Positions 2,198-23,249 of a stretch of DNA of 64,000 nt are shown here, one piece after another; position 1 is the first letter of the stretch, and each line of letters opens with the position of its first letter. This DNA comes from Candidatus Methanoperedens sp. Lineage in GTDB: Archaea > Halobacteriota > Methanosarcinia > Methanosarcinales > Methanoperedenaceae. The notes below the pieces were generated by a model that was given only the letters and a program-made list of their open reading frames with translations, did no database searches and was not told where the DNA came from. Position numbers and translations under genes: made by a program. The stretch is taken from assembly GCA_027460525.1 (NCBI GenBank), contig JAPZAS010000026.1, forward strand, positions 1-64,000. The letters run 5' to 3'.

Positions 2198-3886
2198 ATG
2201 AGAAGCAAGAATGCGTTACTGTTAGATAAGAATAGTTTACGGAAACCATTTTCAGGACTGTTTGGGATGCTCATTGTCTTGATAGTCTTTAGTTCAACAG
2301 CATCGGCTGTAGATTTTGGCAATGGAGATGTGTTTGTTGGTGTAGGCAACGGATTTATCAAGCAGTTTGATTCCTTAGGAAACCTGAAAAATACGCTTGA
2401 CACTGGAACAGGATGTGGCGAGGATCTGGGAATGGGCTTTGACAGTACCGGCAACCTCTACGCCACAGCAGCTTTCGGATCATGTGGCACAGGAACGGTC
2501 ACAAAATTCGACAAAAATGGTAACCTTACAGGTCCGTTCGGGAGCGGCTACGGTGCATCAACTGAATCGATTGCCATCGATGCGGCGCAGAACGTCTACG
2601 TTGGGCAGCCAGACAGTTCCCCGATATCGATACTTGGGTTCAACTCGACAGGAACTCCGCTACCCGGATCTCCCTTCATTGCAGCTGCAGAAGATAGAGG
2701 TACTGACTGGATAGACCTTGCAGCGGATCAGTGCACGATGTTTTATACATCGGAATTTACACATGTCAAGCGTTTCAATGTGTGTACCAGCACGCAGATG
2801 TCAGATTTCAATGCCGTGGCTCTTCCCGGACAGGCTTTTGCCCTGCGCATCCTGCCAACTGGCGAAGTTATAGTGGCTGACAAAGACAGTATAATTCTTC
2901 TGGATGCATCAGGAACTCCGGAAAAGACTTATTTAGCTCCTTCAGATTTTGATACTATTAATGATTTCTTGTTCGCCATGACCTTAGACCCTGACGGAAC
3001 ACACTTCTGGACTGCCAGTTTCTTTGGTGGCAATGTCTACAGGTATGACTTTGCCAACACAACAGGGCCAGACCGCGAATGGAACGCTGATAAGCAGGGC
3101 GTGTTTGGTCTTGCTGTCTTCAGAGCTTTTACCGTCTCGAAAGACTTCCGCTTTACAAATGTGAGCTTTTGTGCGATACCGGCAGAACTCGGCACCCTGC
3201 TGCCACAAAATGGGAGCAAGTTCAATGTAACGTACGTAACTAAGCCTAAGGATGGCACTGTGTCAAGTACAAATCCCGGACAGCTCTATGGCGTAATCAC
3301 AATTAATGGCTTTGGAGCCCAAAATGTGAGCATTAACGATACATTCGGCACTCAATTCAACGTTAACCCGGCTAAGCTCGGAGGCGGAGTAGAAGTTCTC
3401 AGAGTAAATACAATAACAGGAGTTGCCACAGATATTACAAATACGCCACAGGTAAGGTCCGCTTCTGTCGACAATACGAACCACACAGTTAATTTATCGA
3501 TTAATCTGACTGCTCCACTTGCAGGTGATGAAAAACTTATGATATACGTCAAGTTCCAGACTGCGTTGAAAGGTATGTTACCTGATACTAACGACTTTGT
3601 GAACAAGGCTGGTATCGTAATAAATGGAGCGACTCCACAAACAGCTACAGCAACTATCAATTTCGTAACAGCTAAGAGCGGCATGAGTGAAGGCGATGAT
3701 AAACAAGGCTGTGAGGAAACGTCCAAGTTGCACGACGCTAACGGAGGCAATACTAAAGGCGATGATAAGCAAGAATGTGAGGAAACGTCCAAGTTGCACG
3801 ACGCTAACGGAGGCAATACTAAAGGCGATGATAAGCAAGAATGTGAGGAAACGTCCAAGTTGCACGACGCTAAGGGAGGCAAATAA
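2198..3886 (+). CDS. Secreted beta-propeller-like surface protein with C-terminal tandem repeats
   Basis: A 562-residue exported protein. Residues 1-40 form a long signal peptide (hydrophobic core near 22-36, cleavage likely after ASA). Residues about 40-320 carry NHL/SMP30-like blades with recurring patterns such as FDSTGNLYATA and DPDGTHFWTA, suggesting a six-bladed propeller. Residues about 330-500 resemble a beta-sandwich. The tail holds three 22-residue repeats (GDDKQ.CEETSKLHDANGGN), each with one cysteine and many charged residues. The ATG follows a strong AGGAGGA site, 24 bp after the FlaG-like gene, so both may be co-transcribed. The substrate or partner is unknown. A 1-nt change at the end of the repeats ends the reading frame (see repeat entry). 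Confidence 0.75.
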   Translation: MRSKNALLLDKNSLRKPFSGLFGMLIVLIVFSSTASAVDFGNGDVFVGVGNGFIKQFDSLGNLKNTLDTGTGCGEDLGMGFDSTGNLYATAAFGSCGTGTVTKFDKNGNLTGPFGSGYGASTESIAIDAAQNVYVGQPDSSPISILGFNSTGTPLPGSPFIAAAEDRGTDWIDLAADQCTMFYTSEFTHVKRFNVCTSTQMSDFNAVALPGQAFALRILPTGEVIVADKDSIILLDASGTPEKTYLAPSDFDTINDFLFAMTLDPDGTHFWTASFFGGNVYRYDFANTTGPDREWNADKQGVFGLAVFRAFTVSKDFRFTNVSFCAIPAELGTLLPQNGSKFNVTYVTKPKDGTVSSTNPGQLYGVITINGFGAQNVSINDTFGTQFNVNPAKLGGGVEVLRVNTITGVATDITNTPQVRSASVDNTNHTVNLSINLTAPLAGDEKLMIYVKFQTALKGMLPDTNDFVNKAGIVINGATPQTATATINFVTAKSGMSEGDDKQGCEETSKLHDANGGNTKGDDKQECEETSKLHDANGGNTKGDDKQECEETSKLHDAKGGK

Positions 3887-3913
3887 TAAAGGCGATGATA
3901 AGCAAGGCTGTGG
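3692..3913 (+). repeat. In-frame 66-bp tandem repeat, three full copies plus a partial fourth
   Basis: Units start at 3692, 3758 and 3824, exactly 66 bp apart, each encoding 22 residues. Copies 2 and 3 are nearly identical; copy 1 differs at a few bases. A fourth unit starts at 3891 rather than 3890 because the end of copy 3 has one extra base (ggcaaataataaa instead of ggcaatactaaa). This creates TAATAA and stops the protein. The fourth unit is recognisable for about 23 bp before the sequence diverges. The repeat is therefore length-variable DNA inside a surface protein gene. Confidence 0.9.
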
Positions 3914-4008
3914 AAGTTAACGGGCTTGAAAGTGCTTGCAAAGAATATTCCGCATGCAGACGTGGAGAGCTCATCAAGACAGCCACCGAGTCTATCAAAT
4001 CCATATAA
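3895..4008 (+). pseudogene. Possible former C-terminus of the repeat protein, now out of frame
   Basis: Downstream of the repeat-created stop, a different frame stays open from the last repeat unit to TAA at 4006-4008 and reads (M)ISKAVEVNGLESACK followed by a cysteine- and lysine-rich stretch ending TESIKSI. It is 37 codons from an ATG at 3895 that has no ribosome site. The likely reading is that the repeat protein once continued into this tail and that repeat slippage cut it off. A chance ORF cannot be excluded. Confidence 0.35.
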
Positions 4009-7035: not shown

Positions 7036-8550
7036 TTAGCTATTTCTTTTAGCGTTTTCTTCAATTAATTTTATTAAATTGTTTATTTTGCCAGAATATT
7101 CTGAATCTTTTAAGGCATCTTTTAATGCTTCAAACTCAAATGTAAGTTTATAGCCTTTGTTCTGATTACAAAATTCAATTATTTCTTTTTCTTCTTTTTC
7201 TCCTCTTCCTTGAAGAATTAAATTTAAAGCAATGAAAAACTTCGATATTATTATATCTTTTATATCTTTTGATATTTCAAGAGATTTTTGAGCTACTTCT
7301 AATGAATCTTTGTAGTTATTACCAATAATATACACTTCAGCCAAATTTAGATAGGTTCCAGCATCTTTTGGATTTAGCACGATGGCTTTATTGTAGTCCT
7401 TAATCGCTTTATCAAATTCTTTAATATCTGTGTAAACAACTCCACGATTATTATAAGCGTTAGCATCTTTTGAATCTAGTTCGATAGCCTTATTGAAGTC
7501 CTCAATAGCTTTATCAAATTCTTTAATATCTGTGTAAACAACTCCACGATTATTATAAGCTTCAGCAAGTTTTGGATTTAGTTCGATAGCTTTATTGAAG
7601 TCCTCAATAGCTTTATCAAATTTTTTAATATTTGTGTAAACAATTCCACGATTATTATAAGCGTTAGCATCTTTTGGATATATTTCAATTGTTTTGTTGT
7701 AATCCTCAATGGCTTTATCAAATTTTTTAATATTTATGTAAACATTTCCACGATTATTATAAGCGTTAGCATGTTTTGGATCTATTTCAATTGTTTTGTT
7801 GTAATCCTCAATGGCTTTATCAAATTCTTTAATGTCTTTTCCGTAAACAGTTCCACGATTATAATAAGCGTTAGCATCTTTTGGATTTAGTTCTATAGCC
7901 TCCGTGTACTCCTCTATGGCTTTATTGAATTTCTTTTCAGAATAGTACGCATTACCTTTGATAAGGTGCCCTTCTGCTGTAAGATTTTTGATTTTTTCAA
8001 GAGATTTAATTATTTCTTCGCTGTTAGGCAACTCTTTAATATTTTGTGGGACTTCACCTAATTGCAGGTCTGACTTCACCAGTAGTTCGGTTGCTTTTTT
8101 GGCATTTGGAGTTTTGTCTTTACTGATTCTTTTCTCTATATTATTTTCAAGCGCTCTCTCTAAACCCTTATCTTTTTTTAATTGTTCAATAATGTCATCC
8201 TCAGCATCTTCACCATAAAACGGAGTAAAAACAAGCCCTTTCTTATCAGAAAGTTCTTCGTCCAAATTTATGTGGATATTCTCATCTTTTAAGAGTACAA
8301 CGTTCTTCTTAAGGGCATCCAGCAGACCCCATTCATAAGAAATATTATGTCTGAGTTCATTATAAACGACAACTCCAAAATCGCATTGTTGAATAAGACT
8401 AATAATTTCATCACATAAATTACCACCTGAAGCAACATCTCTTCCTGTGATAACTTCTAAACCTTTACTTTCTAAGTATTTCCTAATAGCGTTTTCAACT
8501 TTCATCCTCTTTGTATAACTGATTGCAAGGAAAACGCTACTTTTAACCAT
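7036..8550 (-). CDS. TIR-like domain fused to TPR repeats; putative defence effector
   Basis: A 504-residue two-part protein. Residues 1-130 form a Rossmann/flavodoxin-like TIR-type domain: strand SSVFLAISYTKRM, GLEVITGRDV, CDFGVVVYNEL, then NISYEWGLLDALKKNVVLL. Glu73 in NISYEWG occupies the position of the catalytic glutamate in NAD-cleaving TIR-like and nucleotide-deoxyribosyltransferase-like domains. Residues about 130-190 are a charged linker. Residues about 195-460 contain six or seven TPRs of 34-35 residues (AIEDYNKTIEI.P.DANAYNNRG). The gene is clearly richer in A+T than its neighbours and stands alone, which suggests transfer. NADase activity and an antiphage role are inferences; a regulatory TPR protein is possible. 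Confidence 0.65.
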   Translation of the reverse strand: MVKSSVFLAISYTKRMKVENAIRKYLESKGLEVITGRDVASGGNLCDEIISLIQQCDFGVVVYNELRHNISYEWGLLDALKKNVVLLKDENIHINLDEELSDKKGLVFTPFYGEDAEDDIIEQLKKDKGLERALENNIEKRISKDKTPNAKKATELLVKSDLQLGEVPQNIKELPNSEEIIKSLEKIKNLTAEGHLIKGNAYYSEKKFNKAIEEYTEAIELNPKDANAYYNRGTVYGKDIKEFDKAIEDYNKTIEIDPKHANAYNNRGNVYINIKKFDKAIEDYNKTIEIYPKDANAYNNRGIVYTNIKKFDKAIEDFNKAIELNPKLAEAYNNRGVVYTDIKEFDKAIEDFNKAIELDSKDANAYNNRGVVYTDIKEFDKAIKDYNKAIVLNPKDAGTYLNLAEVYIIGNNYKDSLEVAQKSLEISKDIKDIIISKFFIALNLILQGRGEKEEKEIIEFCNQNKGYKLTFEFEALKDALKDSEYSGKINNLIKLIEENAKRNS

Positions 8551-13876: not shown

Positions 13877-13919
13877 CTCCACGGGTATGCTTAAATCGTA
13901 TTAGAGTCAATTATTGCTC

Positions 13920-14387
13920 ATGATTCATATCCTTGGAAATATCGATAAGTGGATATGCGAATACAAAAAATGCGGCGCGAAATGCTGCACGCCGGGCATC
14001 CAGCTTACGCTTGAGGATATAAAAAGGATAAAGGGACTCGGTTATTCACTTCCGGATTTTCTGGAATTTGATGAGAAAAACCAGGTATTCAGGATTAAGG
14101 AAAAGAACGGGAAATGCTTTTTTATTGGTGAAAAACTTGAATGCACAATAAGAGAGAACGAGCCCATCGTCTGCCGCCTCCTGCCTTTCAGGGTGTTTGA
14201 AGTCTCGTATTCCGACGAACCCATAATGCGGCTTAAACCCGTGGTGGACTGCCCTGGCGAGGGCAAAGGAAAGAAAATCAATAAAAAGAAAATCGAGGCT
14301 GATGCCACCTCGTTCCTCCGTGAATACCAGAAACTCATAAGGGATATCAAGAAAAAGGGAGAAAAAGGAATTATTGAGTCGCTTTGA
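13920..14387 (+). CDS. YkgJ-type cysteine-cluster protein
   Basis: A 155-residue protein of the UPF0153/YkgJ family, which has cysteines that probably bind zinc or an Fe-S cluster. The pattern seen is WICEYKKCGAKCCTPG near the start, CFFIG...CTI in the middle, then ENEPIVCRLLPF and a later VVDCPGEG. The lysine-rich C-terminus (about 115-150) looks helical. Function is not established for the family. Its 3' end overlaps the convergent THEP1 gene by 17 bp. Confidence 0.8.
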   Translation: MIHILGNIDKWICEYKKCGAKCCTPGIQLTLEDIKRIKGLGYSLPDFLEFDEKNQVFRIKEKNGKCFFIGEKLECTIRENEPIVCRLLPFRVFEVSYSDEPIMRLKPVVDCPGEGKGKKINKKKIEADATSFLREYQKLIRDIKKKGEKGIIESL

Positions 14388-14889
14388 GAGATATTTTTCT
14401 GACAATCCCGGAAACCAGACTCTCCCTGTTCTCCAGCGTCACCGTATAAACCTCAAACTCCCTCCGTATTCTCTCCGCAAGCGGATGAGCAGATTTCTGA
14501 TGCAGCACCACGAGCATGTTTCTATCAGAGGAAAGCGCCTTCTCAACTACATGAATAAACTCGAGCGACTTGAATTCCATGGGTGCTATCTCGTCTATCA
14601 CAATCAGCTCCGAATTCATGGCGTTTCTAATCGCACTAACTCCTATATTGTTTAAATCCTCAAGGTTAACATGATAACTCCCCACACGAGGACCGATGCC
14701 CTGCCTGTGGGCAAGTATTCCTTTTCTCTCTGTTGCAATATCCCTTATCTCAAACCCCACTCGCTCTCCCTTTACTCTTATATCGGCGCTTGTCATCCCT
14801 CCGTAAGTGCATGTCAGTTGTTTTAAAACATTGCGGCAGACGGTGGATTTTCCCACGCCCGGGCTTCCGGTGATGGCGATTCGAATCAT
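14371..14889 (-). CDS. THEP1-type nucleoside-triphosphatase
   Basis: A 172-residue P-loop NTPase of the THEP1/DUF265 family, found in most thermophilic and many other archaea. The Walker A motif GSPGVGKST (8-16), GGMTSADIRVKGERVGF, the RVGSYHVNLED segment and Walker B VIDEIAPME are all present. Members hydrolyse several NTPs and dNTPs in vitro, and their role in vivo is unknown. It overlaps the end of the convergent cysteine-cluster gene. Confidence 0.88.
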   Translation of the reverse strand: MIRIAITGSPGVGKSTVCRNVLKQLTCTYGGMTSADIRVKGERVGFEIRDIATERKGILAHRQGIGPRVGSYHVNLEDLNNIGVSAIRNAMNSELIVIDEIAPMEFKSLEFIHVVEKALSSDRNMLVVLHQKSAHPLAERIRREFEVYTVTLENRESLVSGIVRKISLKATQ

Positions 14890-15051: not shown

Positions 15052-15606
15052 ATGCAATGCAAGATATTCTCTAACCCAAAAAGTAATGCTGATGCATTAA
15101 CTCCAGTACGTTTCTATTTAGATAAATATTACCCTTATCGTCATCATACTAATCCGAAATTTAATCCGTTCTCAGGGCTCATTTTGGATGTCAAAGAACA
15201 AAAACCAAATGGGATCCTCTACTTTACGACACAACTGCGTTCCTTTCTTTCATCTAACGAAGAATTTGTTATCTGCGTAATACCATCTCATGAATATGGA
15301 ATTGCTCCATCTGGGATAAGAACTATCGCAAAAAACCTGTGTCGCCATCCAATTATTGACGGTACTGCTGTTATTAAAAGAGTAAAAGAGATGCCAAAGA
15401 AAACTGCAGGAGGAATCCGTGATCTGAATGCTGAAATAGAATCCCTTGGTATAGAGAATGAAAACATAGTTAAAGGAAAACAAGTTCTGCTTCTCGATGA
15501 TGTAACAACATCTGGGACATCGTTATATGCAGGAAAACATATATTAGAAAAAGCAGGAGCCAAGCTGGTAGTCATGCATGCCCTAGCCCTAACCGAATCG
15601 GAGTAA
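15052..15606 (+). CDS. ComF-like phosphoribosyltransferase, first gene of an AT-rich cassette
   Basis: A 184-residue type I phosphoribosyltransferase. The PRPP-binding loop is VLLLDDVTTSGTSL (145-158), preceded by ICVIPSHEYG (75-83) like the core strand of ComF/amidophosphoribosyltransferase relatives. Residues 1-60 are an N-terminal hood with no recognised motif. It has no zinc cysteine cluster as in bacterial ComF. A GGTGGA site sits before the ATG. The stop is 12 bp before the DprA-like gene, so the two are almost certainly one operon. DNA here is visibly more A+T-rich than polB or nadC. Whether it makes or cleaves a nucleotide is unknown; a nucleotide-signal or defence role is inferred from context. 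Confidence 0.75.
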   Translation: MQCKIFSNPKSNADALTPVRFYLDKYYPYRHHTNPKFNPFSGLILDVKEQKPNGILYFTTQLRSFLSSNEEFVICVIPSHEYGIAPSGIRTIAKNLCRHPIIDGTAVIKRVKEMPKKTAGGIRDLNAEIESLGIENENIVKGKQVLLLDDVTTSGTSLYAGKHILEKAGAKLVVMHALALTESE

Positions 15607-15618
15607 GAAACCCATAAT

Positions 15619-17043
15619 ATGAAACCAATATCCATACTTGCATTGCAACAAACTCTTGGAGTTGGATTAAAGACAGTTGAGAAGATTCTATCTTTGTCTG
15701 ATATTCAAGAACCAACCAGTCCATATGATCTAATTGAAATAATTAAAATGGCAACTGCAAAATATAGTAGAATAACGGTACCGGGTATTAAAGAAGCAAC
15801 AATTGGTTGGAATAAAGCACAAGAAATAATAAAACAGTCACAGCAACATGGTATTCAAATAATTTCAAAAGAGAGTTTATATTATCCTGATTCCCTTTCG
15901 AAGATTTCAGACCCGCCAGTATTGTTGCATATAAAAGGGAACATTGATATTTTGAAAAAGGACTGTATTGCAATTGTTGGGACAAGAAAACCTACAGAAT
16001 TTGGCAGAAATCAAGCAAAAAAAATAGGAGGAATTTTCGCAAAAGAGGGATATGTTGTTATAAGCGGTTTAGCAGAGGGTATTGATGCAGCGGCTCATAT
16101 GGGAGCATTAGAAGCTAAGGGTCTAACAGCAGCAGTTTTAGCACATGGATTGGATATGATTTATCCTGCAAAAAATAAACAACTCGCGGAGACCATTCTT
16201 AATAACAACGGTGCACTAATTTCAGAATATCCTTTAGGGACAAAAATTTTCCGTAATTATTTCGTAGATAGAGATAGAATTCAAAGCGGTTTATCTTTGG
16301 GTGTGTTTGTCATCGAAACTGGCATAAAAGGGGGCACTATGCATACGGTGAGATTTTGTGAGACGCAGAAACGAGTACTCATTGTTTTGCAGCATCCAAA
16401 AAATTTTCTTGAGAAATCAAAACCATGCGGAAATACTCAATTGATTGCAGAAAAAAGAGCTAATATTGTTTATGAAAATGAACTTAATGTAAATTTTATA
16501 AAATATAGATTAAACAATAAAAAAGAAGAATTGTTAGCATTAAAATCACCTAATCAACTAAGTCCACCGATTACATTAGAGGGATTCGCACAATCAAAAA
16601 TTATGAACGCCGTAGGCGAATTATCACGTGTATCCTCACATCAAATGAGCCCACCAAGATTATTTGAAGGAAGCTTACAGCCAATACTCAAAGATAAAAA
16701 GAAAACAAAACGTAAAAAGTATTTATTCAGTTGGAATGAAATTCCAGGGAACGATACTGACCAACTCATAAAATTTTTAAAAAAGAATTATGGGGTTCCA
16801 TGGGTGAAAAACGCAAAAATTGAAAAAATTGATAACGGTAAAACCATAAATGTTTTTAATGAAAAAAACTCGCTTTTGCTCACACTTAACAATGATAAAA
16901 ACAAAGCAATTTTAACGATTAATACAACCGATGAATTCATTGTGAAGAAAGAGAATGGTAATCTGAACATCTGCCGTAAAAAAATGTGTATAAATTCTAA
17001 TGATACGAAATTGAAAGATTTGCAAGATTTCGGAGTGACATAA
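15619..17043 (+). CDS. DprA/SMF-family (SLOG) protein with non-standard C-terminal domain
   Basis: A 474-residue protein. Residues 1-105 hold a helix-hairpin-helix/SAM-like start (LQQTLGVGLKTVEKIL) as in bacterial DprA. Residues 106-290 are the DprA Rossmann domain: IVGTRKPTEFG (119-129), SGLAEGIDAAAH (149-160), ALISEYPLGT, DRDRIQSGLS (217-226) and ETGIKGGTMHTVRF. Bacterial DprA loads RecA onto incoming ssDNA; related SLOG domains bind nucleotide ligands. Instead of the usual winged helix, residues about 367-452 carry an unrelated domain (FSWNEIPGND, WVKNAKIEKIDNGKTINV). Residues 290-365 are a low-complexity linker with two SPP-type motifs. It is tightly flanked by PRTase and HAD genes. Confidence 0.85.
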   Translation: MKPISILALQQTLGVGLKTVEKILSLSDIQEPTSPYDLIEIIKMATAKYSRITVPGIKEATIGWNKAQEIIKQSQQHGIQIISKESLYYPDSLSKISDPPVLLHIKGNIDILKKDCIAIVGTRKPTEFGRNQAKKIGGIFAKEGYVVISGLAEGIDAAAHMGALEAKGLTAAVLAHGLDMIYPAKNKQLAETILNNNGALISEYPLGTKIFRNYFVDRDRIQSGLSLGVFVIETGIKGGTMHTVRFCETQKRVLIVLQHPKNFLEKSKPCGNTQLIAEKRANIVYENELNVNFIKYRLNNKKEELLALKSPNQLSPPITLEGFAQSKIMNAVGELSRVSSHQMSPPRLFEGSLQPILKDKKKTKRKKYLFSWNEIPGNDTDQLIKFLKKNYGVPWVKNAKIEKIDNGKTINVFNEKNSLLLTLNNDKNKAILTINTTDEFIVKKENGNLNICRKKMCINSNDTKLKDLQDFGVT

Positions 17044-17045
17044 CA

Positions 17046-17555
17046 ATGAGAGGTTTGATTTTGGATTTAGATCAGACACTCGTTGACTCGCAATGTATTG
17101 AGCATTTGCGAAGATCTCGTCAGTGGTCTTTAGTATACCAAAAGATTCCTACCATATTGGCATATGAGGGTATTGATGAAATTTTATCAATGGCAAAAGA
17201 TAGAGGTATTAAAATTTCAATCGTATCATCGAGCCCTTCAAGCTATGCGCATCGAGTAATACAACATTTCGGATGGGAATTTGATACAATGGTTTGTTAT
17301 CATGATACAGCCTTACATAAGCCTCATCCAGCCCCATTTATTGAAGCCTCACATCGTTTAAAGATTGCAGAAAAGGATTGCTGGGCAGTAGGAGATCATC
17401 CAAATGATATTATTGCAGCAAAGAGAGCTGGCATGTATTCTGTAGGGGTACTTTGGGGTTCGCTTGATAAAGAAGCACTTATAAGAGAGAAACCTGACTT
17501 AATATTTGACACTGTAACCTCGTTTTATAAAGCGATTAATGATAATTTTATATGA
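17046..17555 (+). CDS. HAD-superfamily phosphatase, third gene of the cassette
   Basis: A 169-residue HAD-IA hydrolase. Motif I is LDLDQTLVDS with nucleophile Asp7 and Asp9, motif II is the IVSSSPSS serine stretch, a lysine at about 97 (LHKPHPAPF) fits motif III, and motif IV is GDHPNDIIAAKRAGM. A small helical cap lies between motifs I and II. Relatives hydrolyse phosphoglycolate, nucleotides or sugar phosphates. The ATG is 2 bp after the DprA-like stop, so translation is coupled. It could remove a phosphate from a product of the neighbouring phosphoribosyltransferase; that is inference. Confidence 0.85.
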   Translation: MRGLILDLDQTLVDSQCIEHLRRSRQWSLVYQKIPTILAYEGIDEILSMAKDRGIKISIVSSSPSSYAHRVIQHFGWEFDTMVCYHDTALHKPHPAPFIEASHRLKIAEKDCWAVGDHPNDIIAAKRAGMYSVGVLWGSLDKEALIREKPDLIFDTVTSFYKAINDNFI

Positions 17556-17650
17556 ACAGTCTGTCATTGCTCAAATTGCACTTCAAATCTTCAACCATCA
17601 AGATGCACGCCTATCTTTTTTAGCCCGACTTCGTTAAGACTTAAAGAAAC

Positions 17651-21188: not shown

Positions 21189-22091
21189 ATGGATATTTTA
21201 GACATAATAACAACAATACTTCCAAAAGATATTCTTCCGCAGATTATTGCCTATGGGTTATTCTACTTTCTATTAATTTTTTATGGAAGCACACAATGGA
21301 AAAATTATTCGAGTTTTGAGAAGGTTGTTTTTTCGGTGATTTCAGGAGGTGTTGTTTGGTACTTTCTTATTGTTCCGATTTCTTTTTTTTTGACATGGTT
21401 AAAGTTATTCCAAAATGAATTGCCTGAGATAAAATATAACGACTTATACCCTAACGGTTTATATCTATTTTATTTAATATTGATATATCTATTGGTATGG
21501 AGATTAATATTCAATAATAAACCATTAAGGGACAATAATACATTCTTCAATTTTACAAAATATTCAATAATATCAATTGTAATAGTTCTCTTATTAGCTA
21601 ATTACACATTACTTGCAGCTTTTCTTTTCTCAGAATACCAAGAATATATAACGTATATACAGACATCAATAATTCTTTCTTTAGGTATAATTATTTTATT
21701 TTATCCGATTTTTTTATCATTATATGGAGAAAAAATCATCCCACATTCTCAAATCGATGATATGTTAGCTTCTATAAAATCAACGACATGCTCGTTGAAA
21801 ACTATTATATCCAGAAACAGAACCAAGTTTAAATGGGCGTTATTCCTTGTTTTTATAATTATATTAATAACTGCGGCTTTGATAGGAATTTATTTTTTAA
21901 AAACAACCACTCAGATATCAGAAGAAAAACCTCAAATGCTGGTTATTGATTCTATTTTTATCACTCGCCAAAATGTTAATCTTTCTGGATATCTTTTTGT
22001 TTGGCAAAACTATACCATAAAATTTGGATTAATACCTTATGCAAAAATTAAACCAAATATATCTTTTAAATACGCCTTCAACTTGAATTAA
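21189..22091 (+). CDS. AT-rich multi-pass membrane protein, 3' end abutting an IS element
   Basis: A 300-residue hydrophobic protein that I do not recognise. Transmembrane segments are visible at about 16-36, 47-72, 90-107, 122-148, 155-178 and 215-235, followed by about 65 extracytoplasmic residues rich in beta-type sequence (IDSIFITRQNVNLSGYLFVW). Base composition is strongly A+T-rich compared with the upstream DUF89 gene. The last codons overlap the 3' end of the transposase gene (22078), so the C-terminus may have been replaced by insertion. Probably acquired DNA. Confidence 0.55.
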   Translation: MDILDIITTILPKDILPQIIAYGLFYFLLIFYGSTQWKNYSSFEKVVFSVISGGVVWYFLIVPISFFLTWLKLFQNELPEIKYNDLYPNGLYLFYLILIYLLVWRLIFNNKPLRDNNTFFNFTKYSIISIVIVLLLANYTLLAAFLFSEYQEYITYIQTSIILSLGIIILFYPIFLSLYGEKIIPHSQIDDMLASIKSTTCSLKTIISRNRTKFKWALFLVFIIILITAALIGIYFLKTTTQISEEKPQMLVIDSIFITRQNVNLSGYLFVWQNYTIKFGLIPYAKIKPNISFKYAFNLN

Positions 22092-23249
22092 GCTCTTTTT
22101 CAAGGAATGCACTAACTGTATAAATTGCCTCTAAAGGTGATTGAAAATCGCTATTATCCAAAACTTCAACCTGGATTCTAGAAAAAATGCGTTCAATTGA
22201 ATTCATCCATGATGAGCACGAAGGTAATGGAATAAGATGCAATCTTGGATTCAATGCTGCAAAAGTTTTTACAGCATGCGATTTATGAACACTCCATCCA
22301 TCCAGGATTATGTAGATATCTTCTTTGTGAAAAATCGTATTCAGTAACCATTCCAAATAATCAATGAAAATATAGGCATTCTTCCAATCATAGAATCTAT
22401 AGTAGATTCGTTTATTATGAGGATCCCATGCAGCAAAAATATCCACAAGACCTTTTACCTTCTGTGCATAGGGAATTCTGTAATGTTTATCATTAGTCCA
22501 TTTTCTTCCTGAAAATTTCTTGATAGGAGTTTTTCCTTTTTCGTCAAAAGATAAAACAACGCTATTGGGCGGTGGAGATGCTATGAGCTTATCTATAACG
22601 AGTTTTTTTTATCGAATTCTTTATCATTGCTATACTGAAAGCGTTTACTCTTCTTGATTCTCATTCCTTCGGATTTCATCAAACGTCGTACACTTTCAAT
22701 AGATATTGATTTTACAATCGATTCGTTGAGATAATAATCACATAATTTTGAGAGGCTCCATGTCGTGAAATGCAAACCAAGCTTATTAGGCTCTGTAGAG
22801 GCTGCTTTCAGCATCTTTGCTTTCTGTTCATCTGTGAATTTTATTGAGGCACCTTTTGCTTTTCCCCTTTCAAGTGCAGCCAAGCTTTTTTTGTTAAAGC
22901 TGATGATTGCATTTCTTACTTTCCTTACATCGCAATTCGTTTTTTCTGAAATTTGTTTTGAAGATTTTTTTTCTGATGAAAAAAGTAAAATTTTTGCCCT
23001 ATCACGTTTGAAAGAGTCGCCAGATTTCGTTAATTTTTTGAGGATTTCATGTTCTTCTTGCGTAAGTTCTCTGACAAAAATGGAAGCATTTGATTTTCTT
23101 GACTTTTCAGACTTTCCGGTCTTATAAACTGGTTCGACGGGACCCAAATACTCAACATTGACATGAACTACTTTGTCTCCTTTCCTCACACTTCTTCTTA
23201 GATATTTATACTGTTTGCCTTTGATTGTTTTTATTTCTATGAAAGCCAT
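22078..23249 (-). mobile_element. IS630-type transposase gene needing one -1 frameshift
   Basis: Frame 1 (22593-23249, 218 codons) encodes an N-terminal YLRRSVRKGDKVVHVNVEYLGPVEP domain-like start, a helix-turn-helix (SSKQISEKTNCDVRKVRNAI) and a winged segment. Frame 2 (22078 to about 22602) continues with the DDE catalytic domain: VVLSFDEKGK, YIILDGWSVHKSHA and SWMNSIERIFS supply the D, D and E. A T8 run on the plus strand (A8 in mRNA) at 22603-22610 joins the two; a -1 shift there gives 390 residues with all catalytic residues. Terminal inverted repeats and the TA duplication could not be resolved by eye. Confidence 0.85.
22603..22610 (-). other. A8 slippery site in the IS630-type transposase
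   Basis: The mRNA reads GAT followed by eight A, then CTCGTT. In the zero frame a TAG follows within six codons. Re-reading one A (ribosomal -1 shift, or insertion of one A by RNA polymerase) enters the frame that starts LVIDKL and continues without a stop to the end of the catalytic domain. This is a known production strategy of IS630-group elements, although a simple inactivating mutation gives the same sequence. Confidence 0.6.

Follow-up and report, generated by a model that had tools for sequence, protein, structure and literature searches.

A probable archaeal ShosTA-type toxin-antitoxin cassette with ShosT split into separate PRTase and HAD genes in Candidatus Methanoperedens

The DNA analyzed, referred to below as the window, was a stretch of 64,000 nucleotides comprising positions 1 to 64,000 of contig JAPZAS010000026.1 from Candidatus Methanoperedens sp. 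(GenBank assembly GCA_027460525.1). Three adjacent genes were located on its forward strand: a phosphoribosyltransferase (PRTase) gene at 15052-15606 (184 aa), shosA, encoding a DprA/SLOG-like protein, at 15619-17043 (474 aa), and a gene for a protein of the HAD phosphatase fold at 17046-17555 (169 aa). The co-directional operon proposed in the initial annotation, its genes lying 12 and 2 bp apart, was confirmed, and the ORF coordinates matched exactly. Pfam assignments were Pribosyltran (PF00156, 1.9e-7) for the first protein, DNA_processg_A (PF02481, 1.8e-60) and SLOG (PF18306) for the second, and HAD_2 (PF13419, 1.8e-25) for the third. The PRPP-binding motif of the PRTase, VLLLDDVTTSGTSL (15484-15525, forward strand), is intact, and D149, D150, and T153 within the protein are invariant in alignments.

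The GC contents of the PRTase, shosA, and HAD genes are 38, 33, and 37%, respectively; window ORFs of at least 150 aa average 44.5% (sd 5.2). The corresponding GC3 z-scores are -2.0, -2.3, and -2.2. The earlier description of A+T-rich DNA lying between nadC and polB holds for the composition and for polB downstream but not for nadC as the direct neighbor; nadC is followed by a 157-aa ORF (13914-14387) and then by a convergent NTPase_1 gene (14371-14889, minus strand; PF03266) before the cassette is reached. The genes flanking the cassette are housekeeping genes. A genome of the same genus (G361) keeps polB and the gene after it in synteny and lacks the cassette; DNA similarity to that genome starts at about window position 17641, just ahead of polB, so that the cassette borders a conserved block. 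A search for direct and inverted repeats bounding the cassette gave only short matches at chance level. Two other A+T-rich islands were noted in the window. The first (7036-8550, minus strand, 30% GC) encodes a 504-aa protein in which an N-terminal stretch, TIR-like on visual inspection, precedes TPR repeats identified by Pfam, and the other (21189-23249, 27-34% GC) contains a family-less membrane protein beside pieces of an IS630-like transposase, in which HTH_29 and DDE_3 are encoded by separate ORFs. At two loci in other genomes (L028 and L032, in G297 and G004), a ShosA-PRTase pair adjoins a P-loop gene that resembles the window NTPase_1 gene by eye (...GRPGIGKTTLCMKVF) and is followed by a Trm1-like gene, which may represent a recurrent neighborhood.

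When compared with the PADLOC models, the 474-aa protein was identified as ShosA (PDLC03961, 1.2e-74; PDLC02997, 5.8e-37) and the adjacent PRTase, which carries the intact PRPP motif, as ShosT (PDLC03962, 4.1e-15); PsyrA (5e-32) and PsyrT (8.7e-8) were the respective second-best calls. Solved relatives of the window ShosA in the PDB are 8zva (2.5e-34) and 9vzo (2.8e-34), both of which are E. coli ShosA, and E. coli ShosT (L145; PADLOC PDLC03012, 4e-296) is represented by 8zvb, 8zvc (with PRPP-Mg), 8zvd, 9w2p, and 9w2q. The window PRTase is remote in sequence from characterized ShosT, and this counts against a ShosTA assignment. ShosTA has been recorded in archaea (PMC11291487); a DprA-PRTase pair from a P2 hotspot shields E. 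coli against T7 and lambda (PMC9122126), and in RqlHI the toxicity needs the PRTase domain and is counteracted by the DprA-like RqlI (PMC4670107). Since the core pair of the cassette has already been described as ShosTA (PMC9122126), the PRTase is most likely a toxin and the DprA-like protein its antitoxin, rather than the producer and the sensor of a signal. We consider it probable, with good confidence, that the cassette as a whole is an archaeal ShosTA-type toxin-antitoxin system, directed against viruses and acquired horizontally, in which ShosT is split into PRTase and HAD genes flanking shosA; the PRTase would be the catalytic half of the toxin, and the HAD protein would correspond to the N-terminal half of a fused ShosT. 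This would place a bacterial anti-phage toxin-antitoxin system in the present archaeal lineage.

Features common to the cassette and the E. coli/P2-type ShosTA are a DprA-like antitoxin, an adjoining PRTase whose PRPP motif is intact, the presence of both HAD and PRTase modules, and a mobile context. E. coli ShosT is a single chain of 427 aa with a decayed N-terminal HAD, whereas the cassette has separate PRTase and HAD genes on either side of shosA, an intact HAD active site, and an extra domain of about 90 aa in ShosA. The HAD and PRTase modules are thus not joined in one ShosT chain, although the module content is the same, and because split forms are scattered among fused ones in the ShosA tree described below, the split ShosT is regarded as a variant and not as a different family. 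PsyrTA/RqlHI also combine a PRTase toxin module with a DprA-like antitoxin, but there the PRTase is fused to a RecQ-like helicase, and the 184-aa window PRTase has no helicase domain.

Of the 393 genomes searched in the phylum, only 31 gave a ShosA-like match at 1e-15, and a search of 295 genomes with the PRTase returned three PRTases, all adjoining shosA. The complete PRTase-DprA-HAD order, whose recurrence in other genomes the initial annotation had proposed as a check, was found in unrelated genomes, namely four archaeal ones and plasmids of Sinorhizobium, Rhizobium, Agrobacterium, Segatella, and Hymenobacter. The plasmid operons (S. meliloti pHRB800, R. leguminosarum CB782, Agrobacterium S7/73, Segatella copri, and Hymenobacter pHB) have genes, order, and strand identical to those of the cassette; their PRTases are only 21-37% identical to that of the window, and they are annotated as separate generic genes in records without a system name. 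As for proximity to known defense genes, one copy was found within a type I restriction-modification operon of a genome of the same order (G364), in the arrangement hsdM-hsdS-cassette-hsdR; its ShosA is 81% identical to that of the window and is accompanied by its own PRTase and HAD. This copy and the absence of the cassette from the same-genus genome show that the cassette is mobile. The recurring gene order, the HAD-PRTase fusions described below, and the copy inside the restriction-modification operon bear out the earlier suggestion of a dedicated, mobile three-gene conflict module. In a further genome (G323), the PRTase at L017:2489-3364 has an N-terminal HTH-like extension (RWTEDEDNALRNSYLRGKSIDELA...), which may be a DNA-binding or regulatory module on the toxin.

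In three related genomes the toxin was lost before the antitoxin. The catalytic core of the PRTase has been removed by an in-frame deletion in G098, with shosA kept; in G058 the PRTase is frameshifted and truncated and the HAD gene is also damaged, with shosA again kept; and in G088 no PRTase was found and shosA is kept, shortened at its start. A broken or absent PRTase with a persisting shosA is as expected of a toxin and its antitoxin. It had been suggested earlier that the three genes form a nucleotide-signal defense module in which the PRTase makes a nucleotide that is dephosphorylated by the HAD protein and sensed by the SLOG protein. The assignment to conflict or defense is retained; the roles of signal maker and receptor are considered less likely, since the PRTase/DprA core pair is already described as ShosTA. 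All three folds handle nucleotides or phosphates and the active-site residues of the HAD are kept, but the equivalent pair in bacteria is a toxin-antitoxin system (PMC9122126, PMC4670107), the decay of the PRTase with retention of shosA fits toxin and antitoxin better than signal maker and receptor, and the cassette has no separate effector gene, so that a signaling role is improbable.

Motif I of the HAD protein, DLDQTL (17064-17081, forward strand), is intact, and the catalytic residues D7, D9, S62, K92, G116-D117, and D121 are kept in alignments; no PADLOC model matches this protein. A HAD-only tblastn search of 72,556 plasmids gave six matches, five of which were directly downstream of shosA in the PRTase-DprA-HAD operons of Sinorhizobium, Segatella, Rhizobium, Hymenobacter (where the HAD gene is unannotated), and Agrobacterium (where shosA spans the record start). 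Among the 393 genomes of the phylum, four matches had E<1e-77, all of them in the cassette, and the next best was 6e-32; a HAD-only search of the phage collection at 1e-10 gave no match. The HAD gene is not a passenger but a dedicated short subfamily that occurs almost exclusively beside shosA. The sixth plasmid match (L209, Cyanobacterium aponinum, 3465-3986) lies directly after csx18-cas1-cas2, without a PRTase or ShosA.

HAD and PRTase were found fused in one protein beside ShosA at three archaeal loci (L023, L024, and L051) and on four phage contigs (L125, L126, L133, and L137), and the ShosA partners at three plasmid loci (L254, L256, and L263) are annotated as HAD-IA. The fusion in itself is not new, as one phage record already carries the label 'HAD/PRTase (ShosT)'. 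E. coli ShosT has a weak Pfam HAD match (PF00702, 3e-4, residues 33-130), and its AF2 model (pLDDT 87.5) matched HAD phosphatases as well as solved ShosT; the catalytic Asp of this HAD is lost in the alignment (FSIADV and LSVEDT versus FDLDDT). The same domain layout in E. coli ShosT and in the fusions suggests that the window encodes ShosT in split form, with a HAD that looks active. Since the catalytic site has decayed in E. coli ShosT and related archaeal pairs without a HAD exist (G247 and G334), HAD catalysis is not essential to all ShosTA systems, and the decay suggests that the role of the HAD may be structural or regulatory at base. In a tree of 116 ShosA/DprA proteins, split and fused forms were interleaved and the three-gene label required at least four changes, which points to repeated splitting or fusing of ShosT; the archaeal three-gene loci formed one supported clade that includes two HAD-less pairs. 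The HAD phosphatase module would accordingly be an integral part of ShosT that was often fused and left to decay in bacteria, and a split form with an intact HAD would make it possible to separate the HAD reaction from that of the PRTase, in contrast to the fused protein. The core ShosTA pair was already known; the split ShosT with an intact HAD in an archaeal ShosTA is new, as is the clamp-tethering idea presented below. It is very improbable that the cassette is an ordinary ShosTA pair that happens to be followed by an unrelated housekeeping HAD phosphatase: HADs are common and the HAD-less archaeal pairs would allow for this, but the dedicated subfamily and the fusion of HAD to PRTase in relatives argue against it.

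The ShosA-type motif GGTMHT is located at 16330-16347 (forward strand), where most ordinary DprA proteins read SG(S/A)LITA. The window ShosA scored 184 bits against the DprA equivalog model TIGR00732, under the cut-off of 191 bits, and it is the sole DprA-type protein of its genome. ComEC (PF03772) was not found in this genome, which is 99.5% complete, with a control search that was positive in 10 of 14 named genomes; the combination taken to mark a competence DprA, a score above the equivalog cut-off together with ComEC in the genome, was therefore not found. Competence DprA (and ComFC) and the cassette have the SLOG/DprA core fold in common, and they are set apart by the missing ComEC, by the different SLOG motif of ShosA, and by its linkage to a PRTase. 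The DNA-uptake or processing module that the initial annotation had also allowed for, with DprA and a ComF-like PRTase as competence components, is scarcely credible, because, although DprA and ComFC are competence proteins and the ShosT fold resembles H. pylori ComF (7p0h), ComEC is absent under a working control search, the only DprA-type protein has GGTMHT and a score below the DprA cut-off, and the cassette is patchy and mobile.

For comparison of the C-terminal tails, the bacterial ShosA set was taken from viral contigs, phages, and plasmids. A contig scan with the ShosA profile gave mostly ordinary DprA, which was used as the control set, and scans of viral contigs with single ShosA proteins gave near-copies only or no matches. 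The published beta-clamp-binding motif (CBM; PMC11139829) was defined as Q-aliphatic-x-[LM]-[FL] or Q-aliphatic-x-[LM]-x-[FL] and counted in the last 15 residues. In these related sequences, counted after the pattern had been noticed, the CBM was present in 9 of the 28 ShosA that partner a long or HAD-linked ShosT, and these nine are distributed over some five distinct regions of the tree; the expectation from shuffled sequences was 0.41 (maximum 4 of 5000). A looser pattern was present in 18 of the 28 tails compared with 1.1 expected. Examples are QLSLL (E. coli), QISLF, QMSLF, QLNMF, QLSMDL, and QISMDF, among others. No CBM occurred elsewhere in the 28 proteins, nor in the tails of 71 ordinary DprA or of 23 ShosA with short PRTases. 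Five ShosA with HAD-linked or long ShosT were fetched after the idea arose (L254, L256, L262, L263, and L265), and four of these have the loose motif, two with an identical tail. The occurrence of the CBM in the tails of ShosA that partner HAD-linked ShosT is a new observation.

The bacterial CBM was present in none of 21 archaeal ShosA tails in its strict form and in one in its loose form. Archaeal tails resembling the PIP box, a PCNA-binding motif (QKTLDRWI, VTTLADFW, and VTLDYFA), were seen at 7/21 with the loose pattern, compared with 0.9 expected, and at 1/21 with the strict one. The tail of the window ShosA, KLKDLQDFGVT (17008-17040, forward strand), has no leading Gln and does not match the strict PIP pattern; its LKDLQDFG is a degenerate PIP box at best, which counts against docking in this protein. 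Docking of the ShosA tail on the clamp is thus a supported hypothesis at the level of the family and a weak one for the window protein. We tentatively propose, as a possibility slightly short of evenly balanced, that ShosA is a clamp-tethered antitoxin whose tail docks on the host sliding clamp, which is the beta clamp in bacteria and PCNA in archaea. ShosTA would thereby guard the replication fork, the toxin would be freed upon viral takeover or disturbance, and the tail motif would have changed with the type of host clamp. If the tail motif works, ShosTA would sense infection via the sliding clamp. No link between ShosTA and the sliding clamp was found in the openly accessible journal papers searched. 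The C-terminus of the window PolB, QRSLFEF, fits a PIP box.

A mechanism can be suggested for the putative ShosTA system of the window. In healthy cells, the DprA-like ShosA would keep the ShosT assembly of PRTase and HAD inactive, as judged from homology and the decay pattern, and the ShosA tail would probably tether the antitoxin to the sliding clamp. A phage single-stranded-DNA-binding protein activates ShosTA (PMC10732053); by this literature and the tail motifs, virus replication may disturb the replication fork (ssDNA, viral SSB) and cause ShosA to change state. The released PRTase would then act on PRPP or nucleotide pools, a substrate suggested by the PRPP-bound ShosT structure, and growth and virus replication would stop. 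The HAD subunit probably binds to the PRTase in the way that the two modules associate in the fused protein and, with its catalytic residues kept, may either process a phosphorylated substrate or product or gate the PRTase.

The extra domain of about 90 aa (YLFSWNEIPGND...NLNI) occupies 16705-16998 (forward strand; ShosA residues 363-460). A C-terminal 'domain' as a feature of ShosA was considered and rejected, since this is an inserted element that recurs in unrelated proteins. Its own genome (G000) has five copies including that in ShosA, the others being in a pentapeptide-repeat protein (twice), a patatin, and a lipoprotein (C5 7212-7493, C5 7902-8183, C31 12163-12435, and C1 23591-23881). 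Among 393 genomes, 46 contained the domain, with about 100 copies in total; the open frames that hold these copies range from 95 to 4164 aa, and T2SSF, TPR, and DUF7255 proteins are among the hosts elsewhere. A same-genus orthologue of the patatin lacks the domain and reads continuously as FLRAVRIDNKVYWDGLFSQNPP, compared with FLRAVPVD-insert-YWDGLFSQNPP, so the roughly 90 aa were inserted cleanly and in frame. The domain had no Pfam match and no significant PDB match, and no mechanism of mobility was found for it. It recalls the palindromic elements of Rickettsia. Its sequence pattern is YLFSWxxVPGND...ENGKLNIY, AF2 predicted a confident fold (pLDDT 91.7), and it is a starting point of its own in the search for a mobile protein-coding element of archaea.
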